Shown one piece after another: positions 22,165-40,621 of a stretch of DNA of 40,621 bases. Position 1 is the stretch's first letter; the number at the start of each line of letters is the position of its first letter. A program made the position numbers and the translations under genes. Under the pieces are notes generated by a model. That model was not told the DNA's origin, did no database searches, and was given only the letters and a program-made list of their open reading frames with translations. The DNA is taken from assembly GCA_944320965.1 (NCBI GenBank), contig CALUJO010000019.1, positions 1 to 40,621 of the forward strand, read 5' to 3'. The DNA is from an uncultured Bacteroidaceae bacterium (lineage in GTDB: Bacteria; Bacteroidota; Bacteroidia; Bacteroidales; Bacteroidaceae).

Positions 22165-22176
22165 ACACAAAATATC

Positions 22177-24195
22177 ATGAATAACCAGCTGACAGATTTT
22201 CAGAAAGAAATACTTGCCGGAATACCTGACGTACTTCCACCGGCAAAACCTTATGATACGGAAGTGAACCATGCTCCGAAAAGAAAGGATATTCTGACTC
22301 CCGAGCAGAAGAAACTTGCTATCCGTAACGCACTTAGATATTTTGACCCGAAACATCATGCAACTCTTATACCTGAATTCAAGGAAGAATTGCGTAAGTA
22401 CGGACGTATATATATGTATCGCCTGAGACCTGATTATGATATGCATGCACGTCCTATTGACGAGTATCCGTACAAATCAAGACAGGCTGCCGCAATCATG
22501 CTGATGATTAACAATAATCTTGACAAGGCTGTTGCACAGCATCCGCACGAACTTATTACTTACGGCGGAAACGGGGCGGTGTTCCAGAACTGGGCCCAGT
22601 ACAGACTGACAATGCAGCTGCTTGCAACAATGACAGACGAGCAGACTCTTGTAATGTACTCTGGTCATCCGCTGGGATTGTTCCCTTCACACAAGCGCGC
22701 GCCGAGAGTTGTTGTGACAAACGGTATGGTTATCCCTAACTACTCAAAGCCTGATGACTGGGAAAGATTCAATGCGCTTGGAGTTTCTCAGTACGGACAG
22801 ATGACAGCAGGCTCCTATATGTATATAGGTCCTCAGGGTATTGTTCACGGAACAACAATTACTGTATTGAATGCCGGCCGCAAGCAGGCTGGAGGCTCTG
22901 ATGCTTCTCTTCGCGGAAAGCTTTTCGTATCTTCCGGTTTGGGAGGAATGTCCGGTGCTCAGCCAAAGGCAGCTGTGATTGCAGGTGTTGTAGGTGTCGT
23001 TGCAGAGATTAACCCTAAAGCTGTTCAGAAAAGATATGAACAGGGATGGGTCGACGAAGTCCACACCTCATTGGATGAGCTTATGCCAAGAATAAGAAAG
23101 GCTGTTGCCGACAAGGAAGTGGTTTCATTGGCATATCAGGGAAATATTGTTGACTTGTGGGAATGCCTTGTTGAAGAAGATATCCGTGTAGACCTTGGTT
23201 CAGACCAGACTTCACTTCACAATCCTTGGGCTGGCGGATACTATCCTGCAGGATATACTTTGGAAGAATCAAACGAAATGATGGTAAGCAATCCTGAAAA
23301 GTTCAAGGCAGAAGTTGAATCTTCACTCCGCCGTCAGATTGCTGCTATAAACAAACTTTCGGCTAAAGGCATGTATTTCTTTGATTATGGAAACGCATTC
23401 CTTCTTGAATCTTCAAGAGCCGGAGCCGATGTTATGAAAGAAGACGGTACATTCCGCTATCCTTCATACGTTCAGGATATCATGGGGCCGATGTTCTTTG
23501 ACTACGGATTCGGTCCTTTCAGATGGGTATGTACTTCATGCAAGCCTGAAGACCTTGCCGTTACAGACGAAATAGCGACACGCGTACTTGAAGAGATTGC
23601 AGAACATGCAACAGATGATATAAAGGGACAGCTTAATGACAATATTCACTGGATAAAGGAAGCCGCAAAGAACAAGCTTGTTGTCGGTTCACAGGCACGA
23701 ATTCTTTATGCAGACTGCGAAGGACGTACAAAGATTGCCCTTGCATTCAACGAGGCTATCCGCGACGGTCGTCTTTCTGCTCCTGTGGTATTGGGACGTG
23801 ATCACCATGATGTATCCGGAACAGACTCTCCTTACAGAGAAACTTCCAACATTTATGACGGTTCAAGCTTCACGGCAGATATGGCAGTCCAGAATGTTAT
23901 AGGCGACTCATTCCGTGGCGCAACATGGGTTTCTCTTCACAACGGCGGCGGTTGCGGCTGGGGAGAAGTAATTAACGGCGGATTTGGTATGGTGATTGAC
24001 GGTTCACTGGAGGCAGAAACCAACATACGCCAGATGCTTCACTGGGATGTCAACAATGGTATTACCCGAAGAAGCTGGGCACGAAACAAGGGAGCCATGG
24101 ATGCTATCCGCCGCGAAATGGAAAGAACTCCCGAACTGAGAGTCACTCTTCCAAATCTTGTTGACGACTCTCTTTTGGAAAATCTTGAATTTTAA
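22177..24195 (+). CDS. hutU: Urocanate hydratase
   Basis: Second step of histidine breakdown: water is added to urocanate, using bound NAD+, to give imidazolonepropionate. Seen: YGGNGAVFQNWAQYRLT, SGHPLGLFPS, GLGGMSGAQPKA (NAD-binding), DQTSLHNPWAGGYYPAG, and GFGPFRWVCTSCKPEDL near the catalytic region. At 672 residues it is about 115 longer than the proteobacterial enzyme, and the classic FQGLPARI signature reads VVGSQARILYAD, a Bacteroidota-type variant. Starts 12 bases after ftcD. Confidence 0.95.
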   Translation: MNNQLTDFQKEILAGIPDVLPPAKPYDTEVNHAPKRKDILTPEQKKLAIRNALRYFDPKHHATLIPEFKEELRKYGRIYMYRLRPDYDMHARPIDEYPYKSRQAAAIMLMINNNLDKAVAQHPHELITYGGNGAVFQNWAQYRLTMQLLATMTDEQTLVMYSGHPLGLFPSHKRAPRVVVTNGMVIPNYSKPDDWERFNALGVSQYGQMTAGSYMYIGPQGIVHGTTITVLNAGRKQAGGSDASLRGKLFVSSGLGGMSGAQPKAAVIAGVVGVVAEINPKAVQKRYEQGWVDEVHTSLDELMPRIRKAVADKEVVSLAYQGNIVDLWECLVEEDIRVDLGSDQTSLHNPWAGGYYPAGYTLEESNEMMVSNPEKFKAEVESSLRRQIAAINKLSAKGMYFFDYGNAFLLESSRAGADVMKEDGTFRYPSYVQDIMGPMFFDYGFGPFRWVCTSCKPEDLAVTDEIATRVLEEIAEHATDDIKGQLNDNIHWIKEAAKNKLVVGSQARILYADCEGRTKIALAFNEAIRDGRLSAPVVLGRDHHDVSGTDSPYRETSNIYDGSSFTADMAVQNVIGDSFRGATWVSLHNGGGCGWGEVINGGFGMVIDGSLEAETNIRQMLHWDVNNGITRRSWARNKGAMDAIRREMERTPELRVTLPNLVDDSLLENLEF

Positions 24196-24206
24196 AACAA
24201 AAAATA

Positions 24207-24252
24207 AGATGGAACAGGTTGATTGTCCGGTGGATGAGGCCCTGTTCCATCT
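24207..24252 (+). promoter_or_regulatory. Hairpin between hutU and hutH
   Basis: A perfect 12-base inverted repeat (24207-24218 with 24241-24252, AGATGGAACAGG arm) with a 22-base loop. No T-run follows, so it is more likely an RNA-stability or partial-attenuation element than a full terminator. Confidence 0.6.
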
Positions 24253-24282
24253 GCCGTTTAATCTGATATAAATAATAACAAA

Positions 24283-25776
24283 ATGGAAAAACATTATATT
24301 TCATCCGAACACTTGTCAGTTGAAAGACTGGCATATATTGTAGAAAACAATGTAGAAATAGCATTGAGCGAAGATGCTAAGCGTAGAGTTGTTGAATGCC
24401 GCAACTTCCTTGACCGTAAAATAGAAACATCAAAAGAGCCTATTTATGGTATTACAACAGGTTTCGGCTCTCTTTGCAGCGTATCAATAGACAAGGATTC
24501 ATTGAGTACTTTGCAGAAGAATCTTGTAATGTCACATGCATGTGGTATGGGAGATGAGGTTCCTTCTGATATAGTAAGGTATATGATTATCCTCAAGATA
24601 CAGTCATTGTGCTACGGTTATTCAGGCGTTCAGCTAAAGACTGTTGAAAGACTTGTCGATTTCTTTAATAACGGAATCTATCCTATCGTATATCAGCAGG
24701 GGTCTCTCGGTGCATCCGGCGACTTGGCTCCTTTGGCAAATATGTGTCTTCCTCTAATAGGACTTGGTGAAGTACGCTTCAAAGGTGAAAGAATGTCGGG
24801 TGAAGAGTTGTGCAAGTGCATGGGTTGGGAACCTATCGAACTTGCTTCAAAGGAAGGACTTGCATTGCTTAACGGTACACAGTTCATGTCTGCTTACTCT
24901 GTATGGAGCCTTATCCGTGCAAAGCGTCTTAATGTATGGGCAGACTATATTGCAGCAATGAGCATTGACGCGTATGACGGAAGAATAAGTCCTTTCCTTC
25001 GTCCTGCACACACAGTACGTCCTCACAAGGGACAATTGGATACTGCAGAACGTATTTATAATATTCTGCAGGGCTCTGAGATTATAACACGCTATAAGGA
25101 GCATGTTCAGGACCCGTATTCATTCCGCTGTGTGCCTCAGGTTCACGGAGCAGTGAAGGATACTGTAGATTATGTTGAGAAGGTTGTCACTACCGAAATA
25201 AACAGTGCTACCGATAATCCTATTGTTGTGCCTGAAGAAGACATGGTAATCTCGGCAGGTAACTTCCACGGCGAACCTCTTGCTTTGGTAAATGACTTCC
25301 TTGGAATAGCAATGTCCGAGCTTGCAAGTATTTCAGGCCAGAGAACATATCAGCTGATTTCAGGCAAGCGCGGCCTTCCTGCATTCCTTGTTGCTAAGCC
25401 GGGATTAAACAGTGGCTTCATGATCCCTCAATATGCTGTTGCATCTGTGGTGAGTCAGAACAAGCAGTATGCAACACCAGCATCTGTTGACTCTATTGAA
25501 TCTTCACTCGGTCAGGAAGACCATGTAAGTATGGGAGCAAACGCAGCAACAAAATGTGCGCGCATCATAGACAATGTTTACAAGGTTCTTGGTACAGAGC
25601 TTATGAATGCTGCCCAGGCACTTGAATTCCGTCGTCCGTTAAAGAGCTCGCCTCTTGTAGAAAAGCTTCTTGACGAATACAGAAAGATTGTTCCTTTTGT
25701 GGATGTTGACAGAGTGCTTTATACAGACATGGCCAAGTCTATAGAGTTCCTGAAGAATAACAATTATGAATTATGA
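24283..25776 (+). CDS. hutH: Histidine ammonia-lyase
   Basis: Removes ammonia from L-histidine to give urocanate. The Ala-Ser-Gly triad (144-146, in GSLGASGDLAPLA) forms the MIO electrophile. Other family marks are TTGFGSL near residue 61, ALLNGTQ, the NSATDNPIV stretch and SSLGQEDHVSMGANAA. Length 497 is standard; cytoplasmic tetramer by family. Its stop overlaps the hutI start by four bases (ATGA), coupling the two genes. Confidence 0.96.
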   Translation: MEKHYISSEHLSVERLAYIVENNVEIALSEDAKRRVVECRNFLDRKIETSKEPIYGITTGFGSLCSVSIDKDSLSTLQKNLVMSHACGMGDEVPSDIVRYMIILKIQSLCYGYSGVQLKTVERLVDFFNNGIYPIVYQQGSLGASGDLAPLANMCLPLIGLGEVRFKGERMSGEELCKCMGWEPIELASKEGLALLNGTQFMSAYSVWSLIRAKRLNVWADYIAAMSIDAYDGRISPFLRPAHTVRPHKGQLDTAERIYNILQGSEIITRYKEHVQDPYSFRCVPQVHGAVKDTVDYVEKVVTTEINSATDNPIVVPEEDMVISAGNFHGEPLALVNDFLGIAMSELASISGQRTYQLISGKRGLPAFLVAKPGLNSGFMIPQYAVASVVSQNKQYATPASVDSIESSLGQEDHVSMGANAATKCARIIDNVYKVLGTELMNAAQALEFRRPLKSSPLVEKLLDEYRKIVPFVDVDRVLYTDMAKSIEFLKNNNYEL

Positions 25777-27014
25777 GACATATATATAAAAATATAAAAT
25801 CACTGATGGGGGGATACTCTTCCCCCGTCGTGCGTTTAAAGGGCAAGCAGATGGCTGCGGTCCCCGAGATTGAGAACGCATATCTTATTGTAGAAGACGG
25901 AGTGGTCAAGGATTTCGGCAAAATGGAAGACCTTGATGCCTCTCTGTGCGCCGGAACTGCTGATACTGTGGTTGAGGATTTGACCGGAAAGTATGTTTTC
26001 CCTGCATTTGCCGACTCACATACACACATAGTATATGCCGGCAGTCGTGAGACAGAATACGAAGATAAGATAAGAGGCCTTTCGTATGTTGAAATAGCAA
26101 AGCGCGGAGGCGGTATATTGAATTCTGCCGATTTGCTCCATGTAACGTCGGAAGACGAACTTTATGAAACGGCAATGAAGCGTTTGCATATGTGTGTTGA
26201 AGGCGGTACAGGCGCCATTGAGATTAAGAGCGGTTATGGTCTTTCAACAGAGGACGAATTGAAAATGCTAAGGGTTATCAGACGTATGAAGGAGAATGCA
26301 CCGATTGCTGTCAAAAGCAATTTCCTTGCAGCACACGCATTCCCAAGAAACTATCTTGACAACCACGAAGGATATGTTGACTTGATAGTAAATGAAATGA
26401 TTCCTTTAGTAGCAGGCGAGGGACTTGCCGACTTCATAGATGTGTTCTGTGACGAAGGTTTCTTTACAGTTGAGCAGACTGACAGAATGCTTGAAGCAGG
26501 ATGCCGTTATGGACTCCGCCCGAAAATTCATGCCAACGAGCTGGCTTTGTCCGGAGGGGTGCAGGTTGGTGTCAAATACAATGCACTTTCTGTTGACCAT
26601 CTTGAACATATCGGGCAGGCAGAACGCGATGTTTTGCGCGATAGTGAGACTATGGCAACAGCTTTGCCTGGTGCCGCATTCTTCCTTGGTATGCCATATT
26701 CTCCTGTAAGGGAAATGATTGACGACGGACTTGCCGTTGCTCTTGCTTCCGACTTCAATCCAGGTTCATCACCATCCGCAAGTATGAAGTTTGTGCTTTC
26801 GCTTGCTTCAATAAAGATGAAGCTGACACCTTTCGAGGCATTGAATGCTGCAACCGTTAACGGTGCCTGTGCAATGGGGCTTGGCGGCGAGTATGGTCAG
26901 ATTGTCCGTGGCAAGAAAGCCAATTTCGTAATAACAAAGCCAATGTCATCATTTGCCTATTTCTCTTATGCTTATACGGAGAACCTTATTGACAAGGTAA
27001 TTGTTAACAAATAG
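25773..27014 (+). CDS. hutI: Imidazolonepropionase
   Basis: An amidohydrolase that opens the imidazolone ring to yield N-formimino-L-glutamate. The metal pair His83/His85 is in DSHTHIVYAGSRETEYE. KSGYGLS, AHAFP, DVFCDEGFF, KIHANELALSGG and ALASDFNPGSSP supply the other ligands and substrate contacts, all in family order. Length 413 is usual. Product feeds FtcD, so the operon is complete to glutamate. Confidence 0.95.
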   Translation: MRHIYKNIKSLMGGYSSPVVRLKGKQMAAVPEIENAYLIVEDGVVKDFGKMEDLDASLCAGTADTVVEDLTGKYVFPAFADSHTHIVYAGSRETEYEDKIRGLSYVEIAKRGGGILNSADLLHVTSEDELYETAMKRLHMCVEGGTGAIEIKSGYGLSTEDELKMLRVIRRMKENAPIAVKSNFLAAHAFPRNYLDNHEGYVDLIVNEMIPLVAGEGLADFIDVFCDEGFFTVEQTDRMLEAGCRYGLRPKIHANELALSGGVQVGVKYNALSVDHLEHIGQAERDVLRDSETMATALPGAAFFLGMPYSPVREMIDDGLAVALASDFNPGSSPSASMKFVLSLASIKMKLTPFEALNAATVNGACAMGLGGEYGQIVRGKKANFVITKPMSSFAYFSYAYTENLIDKVIVNK

Positions 27015-27024
27015 AATACTGACA

Positions 27025-27049
27025 AATAGCGGTTATTTTAACCGCTATT
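27025..27049 (+). terminator. Hairpin after hutI
   Basis: Perfect 11-base arms (27025-27035 and 27039-27049, AATAGCGGTTA) with a TTT loop, followed by GTTTAAAAGG. A short weak T-stretch suggests partial termination before the yjbQ-like gene. Confidence 0.6.
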
Positions 27050-27070
27050 GTTTAAAAGGTTAATACAATT

Positions 27071-27481
27071 ATGGTTAGACAGACAGAATTTTCACTTAAA
27101 CCACGTAATAAAGGCTTTCATCTCGTCACTTCCGAGATATTGGGCAATCTGCCCGAATTGCCGGAATATGGGTTGCTTAACCTGTTTATAAAGCACACAA
27201 GTGCCGCGCTGACAATAAATGAAAACGCGGACCCGGATGTGCGTGCCGATATGAAAAGCATATTCGAGCATCTTGTCAGGGAAAGGGAACCTTATTATCG
27301 TCATACCCTTGAGGGAGATGATGATATGCCTGCCCATGCCAATTCAACACTTACGGGAGTCAGTCTGACAATTCCTATAACAAACGGCAAACTGAATCTT
27401 GGTGTATGGCAGGGGATTTATCTGTGCGAGTTCCGTGAATGCGGGGGAGCAAGGAAAATCGTTGCTACAGTAATTGGATAG
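27071..27481 (+). CDS. YjbQ/UPF0047 family protein
   Basis: 136 residues with the family motifs HTSAALTINENADPDV, HANSTLTGVSLTIPI and LGVWQGIYLCEFR. The fold is a small beta-rich trimer with a conserved histidine/acid pocket. Members have been reported with weak thiamine-phosphate synthase activity, but the physiological role is unclear. It lies 56 bases after hutI past a hairpin and 15 bases before the response regulator, so it may be read with both. Confidence 0.88.
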   Translation: MVRQTEFSLKPRNKGFHLVTSEILGNLPELPEYGLLNLFIKHTSAALTINENADPDVRADMKSIFEHLVREREPYYRHTLEGDDDMPAHANSTLTGVSLTIPITNGKLNLGVWQGIYLCEFRECGGARKIVATVIG

Positions 27482-27496
27482 AAAAAGTAAAGTATT

Positions 27497-28174
27497 ATGA
27501 AGATACTTGTAATTGAAGATGACGCTTCATTGCGTAAGATTATAACAGAGGCGCTTGAAGGCGAACGCTTTGTAGTTGAAAGTGCCTCTACTTACAGAGA
27601 TGCATTGATGAAGATAGAGGATTACAGTTATGACTGTATTCTTCTGGATATAATGCTGCCTGACGGCAGCGGACTTGATTTGCTTAAGTATGTAAAGGAA
27701 ATTGGCAAAGATGAAAATGTGATAATCATATCTGCCAAGGACTCAATTGAAGACAAGGTCTTTGGACTTGAAATCGGTGCAGACGACTATCTTGCAAAAC
27801 CGTTTCATATTGCCGAACTTATCGCAAGGATAAGGAGTGTGATACGCCGTAAGAACAATGGCGGAGAGATGAGTGTCAAACTTGGAAACGTGACTATAAT
27901 ACCCGAAAAGTTCCAGACTTTTGTAAACGGAACTCTTATTGAATTGAACCGTAAGGAGTTTGATATTCTTCATTTCTTCCTTAACCGTCCCAATCATCTT
28001 GTAAACAAACAGACTCTTGCCGAGGCTATTTGGGGTGATCATATTGACCAGGTTGACAATTTTGACTTTATCTATGCGCAGATAAAGAACCTTCGCAAGA
28101 AGATGGCAGCAGCCGGTTCTGACGTTGAGATCAAGGCTGTCTATGGAATAGGATACAAGATTGTTGTCCTTTAA
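27497..28174 (+). CDS. OmpR/PhoB-type response regulator
   Basis: A receiver domain (1-115) with acidic pair Asp8/Asp9, phosphorylation site Asp51 (LLDIMLPDGSG), Thr/Ser switch position in ISAKD and Lys101 (KPFH). It is followed by a winged-helix DNA-binding domain (about 130-225) with NRKEFDILHFFL and AVYGIGYKI. It works with the kinase 24 bases downstream. Targets unknown; the hut operon just upstream is one candidate by position only. Confidence 0.93.
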   Translation: MKILVIEDDASLRKIITEALEGERFVVESASTYRDALMKIEDYSYDCILLDIMLPDGSGLDLLKYVKEIGKDENVIIISAKDSIEDKVFGLEIGADDYLAKPFHIAELIARIRSVIRRKNNGGEMSVKLGNVTIIPEKFQTFVNGTLIELNRKEFDILHFFLNRPNHLVNKQTLAEAIWGDHIDQVDNFDFIYAQIKNLRKKMAAAGSDVEIKAVYGIGYKIVVL

Positions 28175-29644: not shown

Positions 29645-32600
29645 ATGTCAATATGGAACAGACTTTTTGGAATTAAAAGTACCGATGATAGGGATAAAGA
29701 CAAAGTCACCGGTAATGATTTCGTATCTGTTTCCAGAAATCCCTCCCATTATACAATTGTAGATGTTGAAGTCGGAATTAATGATGACAAGATTCATGAC
29801 ATAGGTGCGGTACGTTATGACGGAGCCGTATTCCATAAGGCTTCAAAAAATGAATTGTTTGATTTTCTAAGTGATACTGATTATGTGTGTGGGCACAATA
29901 TAATCCATCATGATGCAAAGTATCTGTTTGGAAATGAAGAATGCCAGTGGGTGCTTGTCGATACGCTTTACATGTCGCCTTTATTGTTCCCCGAGCGTCC
30001 TTATCATAATCTTGTCAAAGATGACAAACTTGTCAGTGATCAGGTTAACAATCCTGTAAATGATTGTGAGAAGGCAAACGACCTGTTGCAGGACGAAATT
30101 GCATACTGGAATCTGTTGCCTGAAGAGAAACGCAAGATATTTGCATCATTGCTTAGAGGCAAAAAAGAATTTGAAGGTTTCCTTTCCTTGGTTCGTGCGG
30201 AATATTTAAGGAAGGAACTATCCGACTATATAAGGAGCTATTATAAAGGAAAGATATGCATGAATGCTGATGTTGACATGATGATAGAACATTATCCGTG
30301 TGAACTGGCATATGCTTTGGCTCTTATTGATACTACTGACCATCGTTCAATCACTCCTGCCTGGGTACTCCGCAATTACCCGGATGTGGATTTTGTAATG
30401 AAATTGCTCCGGGATACTGCATGCAATGGCGGGTGTCCGTATTGTGATACCCAACTTGATGTTCATCGTAGCCTGAAAGCCTATTTCGGTTATGACCAGT
30501 TCCGTACTTATGAGGGAGAGCCATTGCAGGAACTTGCGGCAAAGGCGGCGGTTAAAGGGAAATCATTGTTGGCTATTTTCCCTACCGGCGGCGGAAAATC
30601 CATAACATTCCAGTTGCCTGCACTTATGGCAGGTAATTCTGTTCACGGACTTACTGTGGTTATTTCTCCACTGCAATCACTGATGAAAGACCAGGTCGAT
30701 AATCTGAGCGACAGGGGGATTACTGATGCTGTTACGATTAATGGCATGTTAGACCCGATTTCCAGAGCGCTGTCCATACAGAGGGTTTTGGAGGGGGAGG
30801 CTTCATTGCTTTACATATCTCCCGAAATGCTCCGTTCAAAGACAATTGAGAAAATACTTTTGGCGAGAAATGTTGTACGTTTTGTGATAGACGAGGCCCA
30901 TTGTTTCTCTTCATGGGGGCAGGATTTCAGAGTTGACTATTTGTATATAGGAAAGTTTATAAAAGAATATCAGATAAAGAAGAAGTGCAGGAATACAATA
31001 CCTGTATCATGCTTTACGGCTACTGCCAAACAGAAAGTTGTTCAGGATATTTGTGATTATTTCAAACAGACTCTTGATTTGGATTTGGAACTGTTTACTT
31101 CCAAGGCTGCGAGAACCAATCTGCATTATTCTGTTATACATGCAGAAACGGATTCTGACAAATATATGAAGCTGAGAGAGCTTGTTTCTGAATCCGACTG
31201 TCCGACAATTGTATATGTTTCGCGTACCAGACGCTCAAAAGAACTGGCGGAAAAATTAACCCGAGACGGCTACAAGGCATTATGCTATAATGGAAAAATG
31301 GATTCTGATGAGAAGATTGCCAATCAGGAAGCATTTATGAATGACAGAGTACGTATCATTGTGGCAACTTCTGCTTTCGGTATGGGGGTTGACAAGAAAG
31401 ATGTCGGACTTGTTGTTCATTATGATATATCAGACTCTTTGGAGAATTATGTCCAGGAAGCCGGAAGAGCAGGGCGTGACCCTAACCTCGAAGCCCGTTG
31501 CTATGTCCTTTATTGCGATAATGACCTGGACAAGCATTTTATTCTTCTCAATCAGACCAAACTTAGTATAAGCGAAATACAGCAGGTATGGAAGGCTGTC
31601 AAGGATCTTACCAAAAAAAGAAATAGAGTATGTTGCTCTGCTCTTGAAATTGCCCGTCAGGCTGGTTGGGACGATTCTGTTTCTGATATAGAAACCCGTG
31701 TAAGAACAGCTTTGGCAACATTGGAGCAGACTGGGTATATCGTAAGAGGAAACAATGTCCCTCATGTTTATGCAACCGGAATTACTGTAAAGAATATGGA
31801 AGAAGCCAAGAAACGAATAACGGCTTCAATCTTTTTTGACAGCGATGACAAGGAAAAAGCTGTGAGGGTAATAAAGTCACTTATTTCACAAAAGTACGTT
31901 GCAAAAGCACATGATTCAGATGCAGAATCAAGAATTGATTATTTGGCTGATATATTGGGATTAAGCAAAAGAGAGGTTCTTTCTGTTGTTGACCGTATGC
32001 GTCAGGAAGGTATTCTTGCAGACAGCAGGGATATTTCAGCTTATCTTATGGATGCCGGTGATTCGCAAAAGAAGTCTATAAGTATGCTTGATCGTTTTGC
32101 CAGACTGGAAGAGTATATACTTAACCACATTCCCGACAATTCGTTGCGCATATCATGCAAGCAGCTTAATGAAAATGCTGTGAACGACGGTATAAATACT
32201 TCAAGGGAAAAGGATATCCGTACTTTGCTTTATTTCTTGACTATAAAGGGATATACACGTAAAAAAGAAGATTCTGTACATAATATAGAGCTTAGCAGAG
32301 TAACTGACATTGAAACAACTATCAGCCGTTTTGAAAAGAGAATGGAGATAAGCCGTTTTGCTATTGACTGGCTTTACGGTATTGCTGCCGAGTATGAACG
32401 GACTGGTTCTGGAAAAACATCCGTACAGTTCTCTGTCGTAGAGCTTTACAACCAGATAAAGTCGGGCAACAATACGCTTTTCACAAAGCTTGACAATCTG
32501 CAGCTTGAAGATATTGAAGAGGCATTGCTTTATCTTTCAAAGATAGGTGTTCTGAAACTTGAAGGCGGTTTCCTTGTCCTTTACAATGCAATGGATATAA

Positions 32601-34525
32601 AGCGTCTGAAAGACAATAAGGCAAGATACCGTCAGGATGATTACAGAATGCTGAATGAATTCTATAAACAGAAAATCCAGCAGGTGCACATCGTGGGCGA
32701 GTATGCCAATCTGATGGTAAAAGACTATAATGCTGCTTTGAAATATGTTCAGGACTATTTCCAGATGGATTACAGGAAGTTTATCCTTAAATATTTCAAG
32801 GGTGAGAGAGTCGGCGAGATACAACGCAACCTGACTCCTGAAAAATATGAACAGCTGTTCGGGCAGTTGTCAAAACGACAGATGGAAATTGTTTCAGACA
32901 AGGAATCAAGATGTATTGTTGTAGCCGCAGGTCCTGGCAGCGGCAAGACCAAAGTGCTTGTACATAAGCTTGCTTCATTGCTTTTGCTTGAGGATGTCAA
33001 ACACGAACAGCTGCTGATGCTTACTTTTTCAAGGCAGGCAGCAACGGAATTCAAACAGCGGTTGATGGAACTTATCGGTAATGCGGCGCATTTTGTTGAG
33101 ATTAAGACATTCCATTCCTATTGTTTTGACCTTCTTGGAAGAATAGGAAACCTTGAAGAGGCAAAGAATGTTGTGGCTAAGGCTGCCGAGATGATTGACC
33201 TTGGAGAAGTGGAACCTAACAGAATAGGGAAGACTGTTCTTGTAATTGATGAGGCTCAGGATATGGGAGCCGATGAGTATGCGCTTGTAAAAGCTTTGAT
33301 GGACAGAAACGAAGAAATGCGTGTCATTGCGGTTGGTGATGATGACCAGAACATTTATGAATTTCGTGGTTCCGATTCTGGTTATATGTATCAGCTTGCT
33401 CAAAGGCAGGATAGCGTATTTATCGAGATGACAGAAAACTACAGGAGTTCACGTCATGTAATAACTTTTGCAAACGAGTTTGTCAAGACAATTAACCGTA
33501 GGATGAAGAGTTCGCCTATCATTCCGATGCGGAAAGAAAACGGATTTGTCAGCGTTACAAGGCATATGTCCAAATATATGTACCTGTCTATTGTAAACGA
33601 ACTGCTTCATAATTCGGACGAAGGGACTTCATGTATTTTGACCATGACAAATGAGGAAGCTGTAATTATTGTAGCGCTTCTGAAAAGATATGGTGTAAAC
33701 TGTAAGCTTATACAGTCTATGGACGGACTTAGATTCTGTAACTTGGCAGAAATCAGATTCTTCCAGAAATATCTTGGCAAGCGTATAGAAAGTCCGCTTA
33801 TTCCTGATGAGTTGTGGGAGGAAGCTAAGACTGCTACATATTCTTATTATGACAAAAGTCAAAGTATTGTTTATATAAAGCGTTGTATTGAATTGTTTGA
33901 AGAAACAAACAAAAAGAAATATTATACCGATTTTAGGGAATTTGTTTTTGAATCTTCTTTAGAAGACTTTTGTGATGTTTCGGGTACAGATGTAGTCGTT
34001 TCTACAATACATAAGGCAAAAGGCCGTGAGTTTGACAATGTTTTTATGCTTATATCCGACAACTATTCAAAGGATGTGAATCTGATGCGCAGACTGTATG
34101 TCGGCATTACGCGTGCCAAAAACAGACTTTTTGTTCATACAAACGGAGATTGCTTTAATCTTAATAGTGCGGATAGTTTTAAGGTAGATAGGAATGAGTA
34201 TCTGATGCCTGGTGAAATTGTTTTGCAATTGTCACATAGGGACGTTAACCTGGGATTTTTCAAGGACTTGAAGCGTGAAATACTGGCATTGAGGTCGGGA
34301 GATCCTTTGTCTTATGATAATTATATGCTGTATGACCCTATGAACCAAAAGGCAGTTGCCAAATTGTCTCAGAATATGCAGACTGTACTTGCTGAATGGG
34401 ACGAAAAAGGGTATAAGGTGAAATCTGCTTCTGTTCGTTTTATTGTAGCATGGAAACCTAAGGATGCTCCAAAGGAGGAATCTGAAACAGCGGTTTTACT
34501 TGCTGATCTTGTACTTTCTGTTTAA
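29645..34525 (+). CDS. Exonuclease-RecQ-UvrD triple-domain helicase
   Basis: 1626 residues with three enzyme modules. First, a DnaQ-like 3'-5' exonuclease region (about 34-150): VDVEVG (Asp40, Glu42), GHNIIHHD (Asp90) and an acidic last motif near Asp146, so the site looks largely intact. A CPYC with an earlier Cys (260-267) may bind zinc. Second, a RecQ helicase (about 290-690): Walker A TGGGKS, DEAH at 416-419, QEAGRAGRD, then a winged-helix-like part. Third, a UvrD/PcrA helicase (about 1075-1560): GPGSGKT (1096-1102), IDEAQD (1201-1206), GDDDQNIYEFRG, STIHKAKGREFD and GITRAKNRLF. It should unwind and trim DNA in repair, recombination or defence. Role unknown; possibly lineage-specific. Confidence 0.9.
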   Translation: MSIWNRLFGIKSTDDRDKDKVTGNDFVSVSRNPSHYTIVDVEVGINDDKIHDIGAVRYDGAVFHKASKNELFDFLSDTDYVCGHNIIHHDAKYLFGNEECQWVLVDTLYMSPLLFPERPYHNLVKDDKLVSDQVNNPVNDCEKANDLLQDEIAYWNLLPEEKRKIFASLLRGKKEFEGFLSLVRAEYLRKELSDYIRSYYKGKICMNADVDMMIEHYPCELAYALALIDTTDHRSITPAWVLRNYPDVDFVMKLLRDTACNGGCPYCDTQLDVHRSLKAYFGYDQFRTYEGEPLQELAAKAAVKGKSLLAIFPTGGGKSITFQLPALMAGNSVHGLTVVISPLQSLMKDQVDNLSDRGITDAVTINGMLDPISRALSIQRVLEGEASLLYISPEMLRSKTIEKILLARNVVRFVIDEAHCFSSWGQDFRVDYLYIGKFIKEYQIKKKCRNTIPVSCFTATAKQKVVQDICDYFKQTLDLDLELFTSKAARTNLHYSVIHAETDSDKYMKLRELVSESDCPTIVYVSRTRRSKELAEKLTRDGYKALCYNGKMDSDEKIANQEAFMNDRVRIIVATSAFGMGVDKKDVGLVVHYDISDSLENYVQEAGRAGRDPNLEARCYVLYCDNDLDKHFILLNQTKLSISEIQQVWKAVKDLTKKRNRVCCSALEIARQAGWDDSVSDIETRVRTALATLEQTGYIVRGNNVPHVYATGITVKNMEEAKKRITASIFFDSDDKEKAVRVIKSLISQKYVAKAHDSDAESRIDYLADILGLSKREVLSVVDRMRQEGILADSRDISAYLMDAGDSQKKSISMLDRFARLEEYILNHIPDNSLRISCKQLNENAVNDGINTSREKDIRTLLYFLTIKGYTRKKEDSVHNIELSRVTDIETTISRFEKRMEISRFAIDWLYGIAAEYERTGSGKTSVQFSVVELYNQIKSGNNTLFTKLDNLQLEDIEEALLYLSKIGVLKLEGGFLVLYNAMDIKRLKDNKARYRQDDYRMLNEFYKQKIQQVHIVGEYANLMVKDYNAALKYVQDYFQMDYRKFILKYFKGERVGEIQRNLTPEKYEQLFGQLSKRQMEIVSDKESRCIVVAAGPGSGKTKVLVHKLASLLLLEDVKHEQLLMLTFSRQAATEFKQRLMELIGNAAHFVEIKTFHSYCFDLLGRIGNLEEAKNVVAKAAEMIDLGEVEPNRIGKTVLVIDEAQDMGADEYALVKALMDRNEEMRVIAVGDDDQNIYEFRGSDSGYMYQLAQRQDSVFIEMTENYRSSRHVITFANEFVKTINRRMKSSPIIPMRKENGFVSVTRHMSKYMYLSIVNELLHNSDEGTSCILTMTNEEAVIIVALLKRYGVNCKLIQSMDGLRFCNLAEIRFFQKYLGKRIESPLIPDELWEEAKTATYSYYDKSQSIVYIKRCIELFEETNKKKYYTDFREFVFESSLEDFCDVSGTDVVVSTIHKAKGREFDNVFMLISDNYSKDVNLMRRLYVGITRAKNRLFVHTNGDCFNLNSADSFKVDRNEYLMPGEIVLQLSHRDVNLGFFKDLKREILALRSGDPLSYDNYMLYDPMNQKAVAKLSQNMQTVLAEWDEKGYKVKSASVRFIVAWKPKDAPKEESETAVLLADLVLSV

Positions 34526-34616
34526 TAGTTTATTCGTTTTTCATGAAATAATCATTTCCTAGGCTTTCTCCAAAAACATAGGACCTTTTCCTCAAAAATA
34601 TACAATGTTTTGAGCC

Positions 34617-34680
34617 AAAACGTTTAAGGTTTTCTGCAAAAACTTCCTGCCTTTTCGGGCATTTATGTACGCATGTTTTT
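34617..34680. repeat. Intergenic repeat, copy 2
   Basis: AAAACGTTTAAGGTTTT (34617-34633) differs from copy 1 by one base. CCTGCCTTTT follows, and ATGTACGC with two bases and GTTTTT ends it (34665-34680). Confidence 0.6.
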
Positions 34681-34816
34681 TGTTTGTGAGGGAAGATTGT
34701 GCCATGCAGTATATAAAAGTATGGTTTGCATGAATATTTTTTCCTGCTGTTTCTTTTCTTGTCTGTATCATAAACCTGTTGCTGTTATTCTGTTTTTATT
34801 GATTTTTCGATAAAAA

Positions 34817-34848
34817 TTTGGAATATCTGTATTTACTTCATATATTTG
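34817..34848 (+). promoter_or_regulatory. Promoter of the CbxX-type AAA+ gene
   Basis: TTTG at 34817-34820, a 20-base spacer and TATATTTG at 34841-34848. This is the best consensus match in the window. A second -7-like TAATTTTG is at 34876-34883. Confidence 0.65.
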
Positions 34849-35130
34849 CTGCAGATGTGGAAGTTTGCCACGTTTTAATTTTGCGAAAACATAAACAACA
34901 AAAATGTCCAAGATGCTAAACAGCAGGTTTATGGTTTAAAAAATCATTGATTAAACTATTAGTCTTAACAGTTACAAAATGTTGTGACAGGGAATGCTGT
35001 GCTCTTTGACATTCTGGCTCATACCTGTGGTTTCGAATGGGAAATCCGGGTTCTTTTCATTTCGTTTCCGTTGCGGGAACGGGATTTATTTCTTCAAAAA
35101 AATTATTATTCACTCTAAAATTTGTTGTTT

Positions 35131-37062
35131 ATGGAAAATATGTATTTACGCGCAAAGCGCAATTTTGAATCAAATGTAGATTTTGTTACTCCCGAGTTTG
35201 CCAACAATATTCTTGATGTTGAGGTGTCTGTCCCTCAGGGATTGGACGGAGTCAATGATGTGTCTGTGCGAATATACTCTTCATCCTATAAACTTGTTTC
35301 GGCAGAATGTGTATTGCACCAGGTTGGAAAGACATTCAGAAAGGCGCTTCTTCAAATGGGCTCTGAAGAAGTGTGGTGTGAAGGACTTTACCGTGTGTAC
35401 GTATATGTCAATAGTGTACCGAAATGGTTCTGCGAACTTTCGTTGAAGGATGACAATGAAAAGTGGTATAAGGCTGCGTTGAAACCCATAGAGGAGAATT
35501 ATGGGGAGATGATGTTTGCCGACAAATGGTGCCTGACCGACTGGTGGCACAAGATACACTGTGCACGTTTTAAGGAACCGCTTGTAAAGCTGTTGGTCGA
35601 AAGACTTGGGGCTTTCAGCCGTGACCTGGAAAATGGAACCATATCAAAAGTTCCTAATCTGCTGGTTATAGGCGATGGCGAGACGGTTGGGGCAAGTGCT
35701 TTGTCATCTATGGTTATTGGCGGATACATTACGGATGATGACATCTCAAAGAGGTACAGGTTTTCGCTCGAAGAACTTGCGACCTGTTCTTACGGATGGA
35801 ATCATATGGTGGATGAGATTGCTCAGGCAAAAGCCGTGATAGTTGATGTTCCCGAACTGAAATATACCGGTCCGGTGATTAATCTTGTAAATCTGTTTGC
35901 CAGTGTGATAAAGTATGATACTTTCAGAAATACCACTTTCATATTTAACGGCATGAGGCAGAATATCAATCTGATGATGGAACATTGTGTGCTGATGAAA
36001 GATTTGTTTACAGAAGAAACAACCTTCCGTCTGACATACGACAGGTCTGTTGTCATTGACGATGAAAACTTTGGGGAATTTGAGGCATTGCTGAAGAATT
36101 TTATCGAGAATGACAGTGAAGCTGAAGACAGTAGCTGTGAGAAAGAGGAACCTGCTGTTGTAAATGAATGTATTGATGCTGAAAAGAAACTGGCGGCAAT
36201 GGTTGGTCTGCAGCGTGTGAAGGATGATATACAAGAGGCTCGGACAATGGCTCTTTTCAATAAGAAAAGGGCAGAATATTGCTTGCAGACAAATGATAAA
36301 AACTGTAACCATATGCTGTTCCTTGGCAATCCCGGAACGGGAAAGACTACGGTTGCAAGGCTTATAGGAAAAATGTATTATGGCATGGGACTGCTGAGCA
36401 AGGGGCATACTGTTGAGACAAATCGTGCGAAACTGGTTGGCGAATTTATTGGTATGACGGAGAAAAAAGTTTTGGAGACAATAGAGGAAGCGCGTGGCGG
36501 AGTACTCTTTATTGATGAGGCTTATGCGCTTGTGACAGACGAGACTGACAAAAAGGATTTCGGTAGGGAAGTTCTTAATGCTTTGCTGACAGTTCTTTCG
36601 GAACCTAATCCGGATATGATAATAATTCTTGCCGGATATGAGGACAAGATGAACGTCATGCTCAAGACAAATCCGGGACTGAAGGACCGTTTCCCACTGA
36701 CATTCCATTTTGAAGATTACTCTGCCAGCGAACTGATGGAGATTGCCTGCCGCACTCTTGACGAACGTAATTTCAATTTGACTGATGATGCCCGTGATTG
36801 TCTTGCAGGTATAATTGAAAGATATTCAGCAAACCGTGATTGTTATTTCGGTAACGGACGCTGGGTTCATAACCTGATAGAGCAGGGGATAATAAAGAGT
36901 ATGGCACGTCGTGTAATGTCTTCTCCGGCTGCAAACGGACTGTTTGATGTAAATCTGTTTTGTACTGTCGAAAAGGATGATGTTCTGGATGCCGAACGTA
37001 ACTTTCTTCAGTCCAAAACAATAAGAATGTTCTCTCCACGCCCGATTGGTTTCCGGGCGTGA
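35131..37062 (+). CDS. CbxX/SpoVK-type AAA+ ATPase with novel N-terminal half
   Basis: The C-terminal half (about 350-643) is a CbxX/CfxQ/SpoVK AAA+ domain: Walker A GNPGTGKT (399-406), a pore-like LVGEFIGMTEKK, Walker B VLFIDEAYAL (Asp462, Glu463), an LAGYEDKM sensor and PGLKDRF arginine region. An acidic linker (about 323-345) joins it to about 320 residues I do not recognise, which include an alternating strand-helix section (LLVIGDGETVG, AVIVDVPELKY) that may be a degenerate nucleotide-binding fold. It probably forms a hexamer that remodels a protein partner. The ATG at 35131 is preferred to a TTG at 35122. Same strand as the helicase but 605 bases away with its own promoter. Confidence 0.82.
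   Translation: MENMYLRAKRNFESNVDFVTPEFANNILDVEVSVPQGLDGVNDVSVRIYSSSYKLVSAECVLHQVGKTFRKALLQMGSEEVWCEGLYRVYVYVNSVPKWFCELSLKDDNEKWYKAALKPIEENYGEMMFADKWCLTDWWHKIHCARFKEPLVKLLVERLGAFSRDLENGTISKVPNLLVIGDGETVGASALSSMVIGGYITDDDISKRYRFSLEELATCSYGWNHMVDEIAQAKAVIVDVPELKYTGPVINLVNLFASVIKYDTFRNTTFIFNGMRQNINLMMEHCVLMKDLFTEETTFRLTYDRSVVIDDENFGEFEALLKNFIENDSEAEDSSCEKEEPAVVNECIDAEKKLAAMVGLQRVKDDIQEARTMALFNKKRAEYCLQTNDKNCNHMLFLGNPGTGKTTVARLIGKMYYGMGLLSKGHTVETNRAKLVGEFIGMTEKKVLETIEEARGGVLFIDEAYALVTDETDKKDFGREVLNALLTVLSEPNPDMIIILAGYEDKMNVMLKTNPGLKDRFPLTFHFEDYSASELMEIACRTLDERNFNLTDDARDCLAGIIERYSANRDCYFGNGRWVHNLIEQGIIKSMARRVMSSPAANGLFDVNLFCTVEKDDVLDAERNFLQSKTIRMFSPRPIGFRA
37037..37061 (+). other. GC-rich hairpin over the AAA+ gene stop codon
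   Basis: CACGCCCG (37037-37044) pairs with CGGGCGTG (37054-37061) and spans the last codons and stop. No T-run follows, so this is not a standard terminator. The rest of 37063-37171 shows no signal. Confidence 0.5.
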
Positions 37063-37171
37063 TGGGAATTACCAATGTGGATTTATTGCTTTAAATATAA
37101 TGTATTGTTGATATCTGTACTTTTGGATATGATATGCAACATTGTTTTATATAAGGTATATGGCTTACAGA

Positions 37172-37999
37172 TTAAACGGATATGTTACTGATAAAATATC
37201 GGCCATCCCTGTATTCTGTCCTGATGTTTATTTTTAGCATGTGATTGCCTGCCTGATATGTAACCAGATATTTATTGCTGCTTAGCTCGGTTATTTTAAG
37301 ACTTTTAAACCACATGCAGTCAAAGTCAAAATTGTTGATTATAATGTCATATCCCAATAAACCGTCATACAGTGATTCTTCTTCTGCATTTTTGAATTGT
37401 TCCAATGCCTTTTCAGACATATTTGACAAACGTAATTCAGACAACTTCTGGTCCATGTCTTTACTCATACTGCAATATGTGGCAGTATATGACTTATAAA
37501 AACTTTCAATAAATGATTTTTCAGATGTATTGTCTGTTTCGTAATGGATTGTATCTTCCAAATGTGACAGTAGCTCGTCTCCATATTGAATACCATTTTC
37601 AATTGGAGTTATATATGCTATTTTGCATTTGCCGTTGATATGCTTCACTTTTAATGGTATTTCTGTAAGAGTTGTACTGTCTTTTTCCTTCCACAGATAA
37701 CTGACCATATACCAGTCATCACTTATTTTTCTTACATCCAGAGTCTTTATTGCATCAGAATTCATGTCTTGTGCACGTATTATAGGATTCCCTCCACTGG
37801 CATTTCCCATTCTTTGAACTTTGGATATCATTTCATCAGTCATGTAGGTTTTGCATAGAGTTTCATTATTGGAATTGTATTCCAATACATTAATCATGTA
37901 TTTTTTGTAAAAATTCTTGATTTCTTCCAAATCTTCACTATAACCAGTCAAACATGAACATATCAAAAGCACAATTGTAAAAAGAAAACTTCTGCTCAT
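37172..37999 (-). CDS. Putative lipoprotein with two similar halves
   Basis: 275 residues with an N-terminal signal (LFTIVLLICSC) whose cysteine fits a lipoprotein signal. The rest has two similar halves: each starts with a helix of the form FYKxY (residues about 29 and 167) and ends in strands of the form WYMVSYL / KYLVTYQ, then an IAYI / FISNIS strand. This recalls DUF3828-like domains, found in some immunity and stress proteins; that match is tentative. Expected in the outer or inner membrane facing the periplasm. It stands alone on the minus strand, and no promoter match was found. Confidence 0.6.
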   Translation of the reverse strand: MSRSFLFTIVLLICSCLTGYSEDLEEIKNFYKKYMINVLEYNSNNETLCKTYMTDEMISKVQRMGNASGGNPIIRAQDMNSDAIKTLDVRKISDDWYMVSYLWKEKDSTTLTEIPLKVKHINGKCKIAYITPIENGIQYGDELLSHLEDTIHYETDNTSEKSFIESFYKSYTATYCSMSKDMDQKLSELRLSNMSEKALEQFKNAEEESLYDGLLGYDIIINNFDFDCMWFKSLKITELSSNKYLVTYQAGNHMLKINIRTEYRDGRYFISNISV

Positions 38000-38244
38000 T
38001 TTTTTATTGTCATATTTTAATTGTATAATATTTTGTATGTTTTATCTGTATGCTATTCATATTTTAGATTCTAAATGATTTGATACAATCATTTAAAAAA
38101 CAAACCTTTAACACGATATCTGAGGAACAATGGTAACGATTTAGCGACCGTACAATCTTCTGCATTCCACTTTGTTTTACTGTCAAATAACTCTATAAGT
38201 TGATGCAAATATAGTGATTATTTTTAATACATAAATCTCTGTAA

Positions 38245-40524
38245 CTAGAACTTCTCACAGTATTTAATTTGTTTTGGAAACAATGTTTCAATATGAGTTA
38301 TAATTGTTTCACATACTTCTTTATAATCCTCATCTGTTAGAGGAGTTTGTTCGTTTCTCCATCCACCATGAGATAAGTCATTTATAAATATATATGATTT
38401 CTTGTCATTAGGAATATTATCCCTTATATATTCTGCAATACTGTCATTAGATACTTCGATGTTCTGAAATTTAGTTAGTGTTTCTATAATATGCCTTATA
38501 GAGTTTGCTGTGGTATGATTTGCCTTTTCTCCTTTGCGGGCAATTCTATAAATATCAATTAAGTGACTTATATATGGCACCGTAAAGTTTTCATTAAAAT
38601 CGACAAGGTCACTATTACGTAATAATAATTTCTTTTCAATGATATTATTTGCGCATAATATTCTCATAAAATCATTATTATGCGTCAGGATAATGAATTT
38701 TTCTCTATTGAGCTTTTCAAGTATCTGTTTTATATCGCGGATTATTCCACTCACGGTATAAACATATGTAAAGTCCATACTTGATATGGGATCATCAATT
38801 ACAAAGAATAGGTTCTTATAATCCTCTTCCTTTTCTATTTTTAAGTGTGCATCACCCAAATAATATGCGAACGCAATGATATTTTTTTCACCTTCACTAA
38901 GAACTCGTTTGACTTGTCCTTTATTTAGAGTAGTGCTATTAAGAATTAGATGAAAATCATCTTCACTTAAAGTGTATTTGCCAGAAAAGAAATAGTCAAG
39001 TACACATTTTATTGTTTCATATACTTTCTTCTTTTTACTAACTTTTTCAGCCTCTTTTCTTTTGGAAATATCATCATTCAATTCTTTATATTCTTTTCTT
39101 AATTCATGTATTTTTAGGATATCCTTATTACAAACCTCAACAAGATGTGCATATGCTGATTTGCATATAGCTTTTCTTATATTTTTATTTTCTTCCCCTA
39201 TTTTATTTTTCTTCTGATTGATAGTTCTGATTTTTTCATTATTACTCTCAATCAAATAATTTAATGTAATTGTATGTTTTTTAATATTTTGGATAATATC
39301 ATCACCAACTTTAATCGAAATGTCTATAGCTTCTATTTTTTTATTCGTAGCATCTAGCACATTTTGAATACAATCTTTAATTAATGTAATAACGGCAATA
39401 CTTTCCAAATTGTCATTGTCTACTGAAGGAATATATTTGGTCTTATATTCATTGTACAAATTTACTCTTTGAATTACTGTATTTTCGACATTCGACAATA
39501 GGTATATAATATTTTGCAATTGCTTACTATAGTTTTGAAATAGTTTTATGGTTTGAGATTCCGAATCAGTCAGGAATTGCGTGTATTTGTCAATCAATGC
39601 GAGAGAATCAATAGTTAATTCTTGCTCACAAAAAGGGCAATGATTATCCTTAAATAATTTAACACCTTCTTCTATAAAATTCTGTTTACTCTTGATTTTG
39701 GCTTTAAATTCGCCCGAGAACGAACTGAGATTATATTGCTTATCTAAATCACTTACAATAGTTTGTATAAAGTCGGCATCAATGGATATCTTGTCTATTA
39801 ACAATATATCCTCAAGATTTTCAGGAGTAGACTTAACCTTATTATAATCAGCAAGTAGATCTTCAACTGTTTTAGAGCAACTATGTTTTTCCCGATTTAT
39901 AGAGTCTAAAATTGCTTCTGTATTTAATAAATCTTTATATTCTTGTAATCGTTTTATATCTCTAATTGAATCAATGTTTTTTATCAAATAGGCTTGAATA
40001 ATTTTTTCGATTTGGTTTCTTAGTACGACTCCATCTTCTTTGATTTTCTTCAATTTATTTTCATCATCAGTCAAATCAATATTTGCTCTACCTAGAATAT
40101 ATCCCTGAATATCAGAGTCTTTTTCATAATTTAGGACCCTAATATTTTCTTCAACATAATCTTGATTGAATACATGATATAAGTAATGGGGATTTGGCAA
40201 AGTCGGAATATTTTTTTCTTTAATATCAAAGGATATGTCTTCAATGACAGCGTTTTCTTTGTCTGTAATTTTAAAAGCAAAATGTCCCCAATTATGGCCA
40301 AATCTAATTAATGAATCAGTAGGGCTACAACCATTCCCATCTAAACTTAAATTCTGATTAGTATGATCTAGAAGTCGAAATAATCTACTTATGAATGTTT
40401 TTCCACAGCCATTGTTTGCAAAAATACCAATCTTCAAAGAGCCAAGATGAAATTCTCTTTGCAATTTTTCTATTGGGGCAATCTGTTGACATTCAATATA
40501 TACTTTTATTTTGCTATCTGCCAT
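38245..40524 (-). CDS. RloC-like ABC-type ATPase, putative anticodon nuclease
   Basis: 759 residues. N-terminal Walker A GIFANNGCGKT (33-43) and VFNQDYVEENI are as in AAA_13 ATPases. A long coiled coil carries a zinc-hook CPFC (Cys296, Cys299). The ATPase returns with the signature LSEGEKN and Walker B FFVIDDPISSMD. The C-terminal domain has Arg677, Glu681 (R-x3-E) and His719 in NDLSHGG, spaced much like the Arg320/Glu324/His356 of PrrC anticodon nuclease. RloC and PrrC cut tRNA anticodons when phage or DNA damage is sensed. The start at 40524 is chosen over a TTG at 40542 because AGGGA lies just upstream. The gene is very AT-rich, suggesting transfer. Nuclease activity is inferred. Confidence 0.75.
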   Translation of the reverse strand: MADSKIKVYIECQQIAPIEKLQREFHLGSLKIGIFANNGCGKTFISRLFRLLDHTNQNLSLDGNGCSPTDSLIRFGHNWGHFAFKITDKENAVIEDISFDIKEKNIPTLPNPHYLYHVFNQDYVEENIRVLNYEKDSDIQGYILGRANIDLTDDENKLKKIKEDGVVLRNQIEKIIQAYLIKNIDSIRDIKRLQEYKDLLNTEAILDSINREKHSCSKTVEDLLADYNKVKSTPENLEDILLIDKISIDADFIQTIVSDLDKQYNLSSFSGEFKAKIKSKQNFIEEGVKLFKDNHCPFCEQELTIDSLALIDKYTQFLTDSESQTIKLFQNYSKQLQNIIYLLSNVENTVIQRVNLYNEYKTKYIPSVDNDNLESIAVITLIKDCIQNVLDATNKKIEAIDISIKVGDDIIQNIKKHTITLNYLIESNNEKIRTINQKKNKIGEENKNIRKAICKSAYAHLVEVCNKDILKIHELRKEYKELNDDISKRKEAEKVSKKKKVYETIKCVLDYFFSGKYTLSEDDFHLILNSTTLNKGQVKRVLSEGEKNIIAFAYYLGDAHLKIEKEEDYKNLFFVIDDPISSMDFTYVYTVSGIIRDIKQILEKLNREKFIILTHNNDFMRILCANNIIEKKLLLRNSDLVDFNENFTVPYISHLIDIYRIARKGEKANHTTANSIRHIIETLTKFQNIEVSNDSIAEYIRDNIPNDKKSYIFINDLSHGGWRNEQTPLTDEDYKEVCETIITHIETLFPKQIKYCEKF

Positions 40525-40545
40525 ATTATTCCCTATCAACAATTG

Positions 40546-40620
40546 TTATGCTGCGTTATAAATTTGAATTAGTTTTGTTTTTATCTCTCCGAAAGTCAGG
40601 CTTGTACTAAAATCAGTCGT
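40546..40620 (-). CDS. C-terminal end of an unknown upstream gene (cut by window edge)
   Basis: On the minus strand one frame is open from the edge for 24 codons, ending LTFGEIKTKLIQIYNAA then TAA (40548-40546). It stops 21 bases before the ATG of the RloC-like gene, the spacing of an operon partner. Another frame stops quickly. The family cannot be named from this tail. Confidence 0.4.
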   Translation of the reverse strand, partial: TTDFSTSLTFGEIKTKLIQIYNAA

Positions 40621-40621
40621 T

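Follow-up and report, generated by a model that had tools for sequence, protein, structure and literature searches.

A gene for a predicted RloC anticodon nuclease at the end of a Bacteroidaceae contig

The rloC gene and its encoded features

The stretch of DNA analysed here (hereafter, the window) comprises 40,621 nucleotides of the contig CALUJO010000019.1 from an uncultured Bacteroidaceae bacterium (assembly GCA_944320965.1). Near one end, on the minus strand at 38245..40524, lies a gene that very probably encodes RloC, a predicted self-contained, DNA-break-triggered anticodon nuclease that would stop translation, likely protecting the population from phage. The open reading frame is intact, with an ATG start and 759 codons for a protein of 759 amino acids, and because it is open and retains its motifs, we rejected its reading as a broken gene. 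A TTG codon further upstream, at 40542, is also in an open frame and would lengthen the product by 6 residues, to 765 amino acids, but all 11 homologues in the alignment shown begin at the ATG, not at the TTG. The contig ends at position 40621, so that only 97 bp are visible upstream of the ATG.

The initial annotation had described Walker motifs, a CPFC hook and a C-terminal R-x3-E...H set in this protein, and all of these residues could be located (coordinates below are on the minus strand throughout). The motifs of the ATP-binding cassette (ABC) ATPase come in two blocks, with the Walker A motif ANNGCGKT (residues 36-43, from A36 to T43; 40396..40419) separated by a long insert from the ABC signature LSEGEKN (residues 542-548; 38881..38901), the Walker B/D-loop LFFVIDDPISSMD (residues 572-584; 38773..38811) and the H-switch THNN (residues 614-617, including T614 and H615; 38674..38685). 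The insert carries the zinc-hook motif C296-P-F-C299 (39628..39639), the sole CxxC in the protein, flanked in the predicted model by helices at residues 152-290 (in pieces) and 305-513. The C-terminal helical domain (residues 643-759; 38248..38598), a predicted HEPN ribonuclease, holds the putative nuclease triad, of which R677-x3-E681 (38482..38496) provides the first two residues and H719, within S718-H719 (38368..38373), the third. The distance from Glu681 to His719 is 38 residues, that is, 37 residues lie between them.

Conservation, profile and structure matches

A homologue search with the RloC protein, in which the 7993 candidates sharing the most words were scored, returned 345 matches, of which the best 120 were listed; a second search, with a distant relative from Sulfurovum (L031), gave 115 matches that partly overlapped the first set. 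From the 222 proteins thus collected, we aligned 214 of 650-850 amino acids with the query (215 rows in all), leaving out 8, namely, the query's own copy and 7 proteins shorter than 650 residues. C296, C299, R677 and H719 are kept in all 215 rows, and E681 and S718 in 214 each, the sole exception at E681 being a protein (P0022) that has a lysine there. The ABC-ATPase motif residues that were counted are kept in 210-215 rows (G39, K42, D577 and D578 in 214; S543, G545 and H615 in 215). In a closer set of 54 proteins, the query and 53 hand-picked from the 120 listed, the hook and triad residues, S718 and D577/D578 never vary, and all 54 have a Glu-His spacing of 38. Across the 214 rows of the full alignment with a glutamate at this position (P0022 excluded), the spacing is 38 in 161 and 37 in 48, with rarer values of 36 (2 rows), 40 (2 rows) and 59 (1 row).

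Because the homologues were collected by similarity, overall conservation is expected, and the telling point is that the hook and the triad belong to the 57 of 759 columns that agree with the query in at least 98% of the rows. Judged from the aligned sequences, then, the conservation of these motifs is not a matter of chance. By themselves, the motifs are moderate evidence, because of 2000 shuffles of the protein 7% had R-x3-E-x36-52-H within their final 120 residues and 18% had a CxxC anywhere; with a serine before the histidine, the former figure falls to 0.6%.

Profile searches, which the initial annotation had proposed as a check, point in the same direction. The PADLOC model PDLC04898 for PDC-S06 matches residues 1-758, practically the full length (E 1e-292), and was matched by 12 of the 12 proteins of a hand-picked set; the PADLOC PrrC profile matches the C-terminal part only (residues 483-749, E 2.8e-16). 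NCBIfam gave no match to an RloC model. Among the matches listed, relatives carry names such as 'translation-disabling ACNase RloC' and 'wobble nucleotide-excising tRNase' in public records. In Pfam, AAA_13 covers residues 40-743 of the TTG-started 765-residue frame (E 9.1e-40), and in PHROGs, phrog_2801, of unknown function, is the sole significant match. A search of the PDB with the single sequence gave no match at E <= 10, and a profile search gave 9 weak ones, best E 0.005, ribosomal L27, a membrane protein and a GCN4 fusion among them.

Structure comparison separates the two parts of the protein. The initial annotation had held that it would speak against its proposal if the structurally closest proteins came from a non-nuclease family, and this was the case for the ATPase head alone: the predicted head matches SMC/Rad50 heads, which also come out on top when the whole model is compared with solved structures. 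This is expected, because the head of RloC is Rad50-like. When the C-terminal domain was modelled alone, VIA-align ranked HEPN proteins first, if weakly, and Foldseek gave no significant match.

Placement in the RloC family, proposed mechanism and rival explanations

In the account of Davidov and Kaufmann (2008), RloC proteins are PrrC homologues of 658-897 amino acids whose ATPase domain is interrupted by an insert with a CxxC zinc hook and which carry the motif R-x3-E-x36-52-H, often with a serine preceding the histidine (PMC2610378). The window protein, at 759 amino acids, falls within this range of length; its ABC-ATPase motifs (36-43, 542-548, 572-584 and 614-615) are split by the insert; its CxxC hook lies within that insert, which is helical in the model and a presumed coiled coil; and R677, E681, x37 and S718-H719 conform to the nuclease motif. 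In domain order, size class, hook and triad with the preceding serine, it resembles the RloC proteins of Geobacillus kaustophilus and Acinetobacter baylyi. In the former (GkaRloC), the corresponding residues are given as C288, C291, R692, E696 and H737, with a Glu-His spacing of 41 (PMC2610378), unlike the 38 found here. The initial annotation had contrasted the 38 residues with 32 in PrrC; the figure holds, but as a novelty we reject it, because 38 lies within the published RloC range of x36-52 and 209 of the 214 rows have 37 or 38. With the evidence from profiles, motifs, conservation and head fold in agreement, the assignment of the window protein to the RloC group, first suggested in that annotation, is supported, and rloC here is an ordinary member of a known family.

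The full-length profile match raises the relationship of RloC to PDC-S06, a PADLOC candidate single-gene defence system whose returned entries, unlike the descriptions of RloC, carry no account of mechanism. Pseudomonas aeruginosa PA14 is listed with two RloC proteins in one source (PMC2610378) and with two PDC-S06 calls in another (PMC11878078); given the count of two under either name, both labels probably denote a single family. In a further paper, PDC-S06 figures among the PADLOC candidates identical to proteins of DefenseFinder systems, with the system not specified there (PMC11811056). The present finding supports reading the mechanism-less label as RloC.

By analogy with the tested relatives, from which we infer tRNA cleavage, its target and its trigger, the protein would work as follows. 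Its sequence and modelled layout describe an SMC/Rad50-like ATPase head, split by a helical arm with the CPFC hook and followed by the helical domain with the Arg-Glu-His triad. Two such hooks would join over a zinc ion and keep the nuclease off, until linear DNA ends, arising from phage attack or DNA damage, would engage the head, upon which ATP would be hydrolysed and the nuclease released. The triad would then cut on both sides of the wobble base, probably of tRNA-Glu and/or tRNA-Gln, and the loss of this base would be hard for phage repair enzymes to reverse, so that translation would stop and the infection would fail or the cell would pause. The phage-defence benefit and the tRNA target are the least certain parts of this scenario, the former because published field and deletion data, as reported in PMC12447246 and in the discussion of Klaiman et al. 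(2013; PMC3874168), are mixed.

It is conceivable, if improbable, that the protein is instead a PrrC-type or more general HEPN ribonuclease with another target, be it mRNA or a different tRNA without wobble excision, and thus is RloC by descent but not by product. HEPN enzymes do differ in target, RNase LS and LsoA being described as cutting mRNA (PMC3710099), and RloC and PrrC are reported to differ in their choice of tRNA (PMC3874168). On the other side, the two tested RloC proteins, GkaRloC and AbaRloC, both cut anticodon loops according to the same source, despite sharing just 33% identity, and the fine features of the motif in the window protein, namely, the serine before the histidine and the spacing, agree with RloC. 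As for PrrC proper, the combination of an ABC ATPase with a (here, predicted) C-terminal R-E-H nuclease and the profile match over residues 483-749 are points in common, but PrrC is described as a protein of 341-416 amino acids, without the zinc-hook insert, with a Glu-His spacing of 32, and encoded within a type Ic hsd locus (PMC2610378). The window protein, with 759 residues and its CPFC insert, differs on both counts, and there is no N6_Mtase match on its contig, which stops 97 bp upstream of the ATG; we therefore reject PrrC orthology on length and hook, the locus context being only partly visible.

Two further rivals take the head as the key to the function. The ATPases PtuA of Septu and retrons and LmuB of Lamassu work with separate nucleases. 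For PtuA, the partner is PtuB (PMC11555353), and a protein of this type would only regulate such a partner. The Foldseek matches of the predicted head do include Lamassu and retron PtuA structures, indicating a related ATPase head, and the PADLOC LmuB profile has a match at E 7.2e-14. This match, however, is limited to residues 112-624; unlike PtuA and LmuB, the window protein adds a predicted nuclease domain of its own, with the conserved R-E-H residues; and no partner-like gene is seen in the visible flanks, the upstream one being cut by the contig end. We accordingly reject PtuA or LmuB alone and consider a regulator of this kind highly improbable. The same small likelihood attaches to a relative of SbcC/Rad50 acting in DNA repair without a nuclease role, a reading favoured by the comparison of the whole model with solved structures, where SMC/Rad50 heads match best. 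As characterized in PMC2610378, SbcC and Rad50 have no C-terminal domain with the triad; in the window protein, this domain ranks with the best-conserved parts, the triad being kept in 214-215 of 215 rows, and this leads us to reject SbcC/Rad50 alone. Moreover, with up to 3 candidates scored in each, 297 of the 301 sampled genomes of the family lack a match at E <= 0.001, and 3 of the 4 matches are partial at 27% identity, unlike what would be seen for a core repair gene.

As an RloC, the window protein changes no general picture, yet it extends the family, in which activity is described for GkaRloC and AbaRloC, by a well-conserved branch that is mainly from Bacteroidota: most of the named full-length relatives found are from Bacteroidota, unlike the tested proteins from Geobacillus and Acinetobacter. 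An activity test of a member of this branch would show whether the targeting of tRNA-Glu/Gln and the sensing of breaks are family-wide.

Genomic setting, related loci and the adjacent repeat

The rloC gene is sporadic in its order. A full-length relative was found in its own genome only, in the 5 genomes of the genus as well as in a family sample of 301 (cut-off E <= 0.001, with up to 3 candidates scored for each genome), which gave 3 further, partial matches at 27% identity; among the sampled genomes of the order, its own and 3 of 392 others have a full-length relative, and 3 more have weak matches. Phage records yielded 3 partial matches among 50,697, and plasmid records 64 matches among 72,556, all below 60% identity, of which 5 cover at least 80% of the query at about 25-26%. 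The claim of the initial annotation that the gene is distinctly AT-rich and lies at the edge of an accessory region is borne out. The guanine-plus-cytosine content of rloC is 28.7% vs 39.8% for window 1-37100, where the lowest of the 2280-bp stretches (697 stretches, in 50-bp steps) reaches 33.6%, and none of the 4 congeners has DNA that matches window 34600-40621. Window 28100-34600 matches partly in 3 of the 4, and window 22000-28000, with histidine utilisation genes and a regulator, matches in all 4, in one of them (G002) by short pieces only. HsdM-type N6_Mtase matches in the same genome are on contigs C4 and C31 and, weakly, on C1, with none on the rloC contig (C19), the upstream side of which is cut. 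The AT-richness, the patchy presence and the lack of a methylase match on the visible part of this contig agree with the view in the literature of RloC as a gene that moves laterally and stands alone, usually without linkage to type I restriction-modification.

We also inspected 33 loci of relatives (L003-L035) on 32 contigs, where 10 chosen frames were searched with profiles, so that no rates are given. Genes of restriction-modification type are near rloC in L004, L020, L022 and L028; sequence clustering adds L021/L035 to these. A frame in L011, checked by profile as a tyrosine integrase, falls into one cluster with frames of L012, L013, L020 and L022. The motif scan of these relatives excluded L032-L034, which are partial and at contig ends; L023 keeps the hook and the triad. 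In Candidatus Endomicrobiellum agilis (L021 and L035, on one contig), a full rloC is accompanied by a frame of 137 codons, without hook and ATPase, whose match is confined to the C-terminal nuclease domain, and nearby frames cluster with an N6_N4 methylase. In 2 of the 33 relatives (L028 and L029), rloC comes in two separate frames, which may reflect decay or sequencing error. In Zunongwangia pacifica (L030 and L034), two contigs of one genome each carry a piece of rloC, corresponding to residues 419-757 and 1-215, which would fit an assembly broken by an insertion or a repeat inside the gene, or else two partial copies.

Between rloC and the next gene, at window 38060-38202 and about 43 bp 3' of the rloC stop, lies a non-coding repeat with a unit of about 141 bp when aligned and a small terminal hairpin, which recurs elsewhere at 67-75% identity. 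A 245-bp query found some match in 17 of 151 sampled family genomes, and at least 120 bp of the core in its own and 7 of 150 others. The plasmid pBUN1 of Bacteroides uniformis carries a copy that is flanked on one side by an IS256 transposase gene and on the other by the 3' end of blaMUN-1. In L057, a copy lies some 20 bp 3' of a gene for a Vsr repair endonuclease, and in L060 a copy lies about 120 bp 3' of a gene for a hexapeptide acetyltransferase; two more directly precede a TIR-WD40 gene (L056) and an EamA transporter gene (L059). The repeat may be akin to a miniature inverted-repeat transposable element, a cassette boundary or a regulatory sequence. That rloC moves as a gene cassette, with the repeat as the site at which an undescribed cassette-moving system recombines and thereby spreads genes for defence and resistance in the family, strikes us as quite unlikely: several copies, among them the one in the window, are also immediately upstream of a gene, and only one copy was found in the rloC-bearing genome and one on the pBUN1 stretch examined. 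For an integron attC site, no conserved R'/R'' boxes were discernible by eye. A reading as structured RNA is not convincing either, given a covariation term of -0.03 and changes on both sides in 3 of the 29 pairs predicted from 7 sequences; Rfam gave no match in the window at the gathering score and none in 37950-38300 at E <= 1.

The next frame downstream of rloC, 245 bp away, encodes 275 amino acids with a sub-threshold DUF3828 match. Window 35122-37062 contains a 646-residue frame with a C-terminal AAA+ ATPase of the CbbX/SpoVK/EccA type, the N-terminal half of which clearly matches no family, and has no DNA match in the four congeners. Finally, window 29645-34525 holds a frame of 1626 residues in which a DEAD-box helicase (PADLOC DpdF match over residues 272-658, E 2.3e-93) is fused to a UvrD-type helicase (from about residue 1073 onward).
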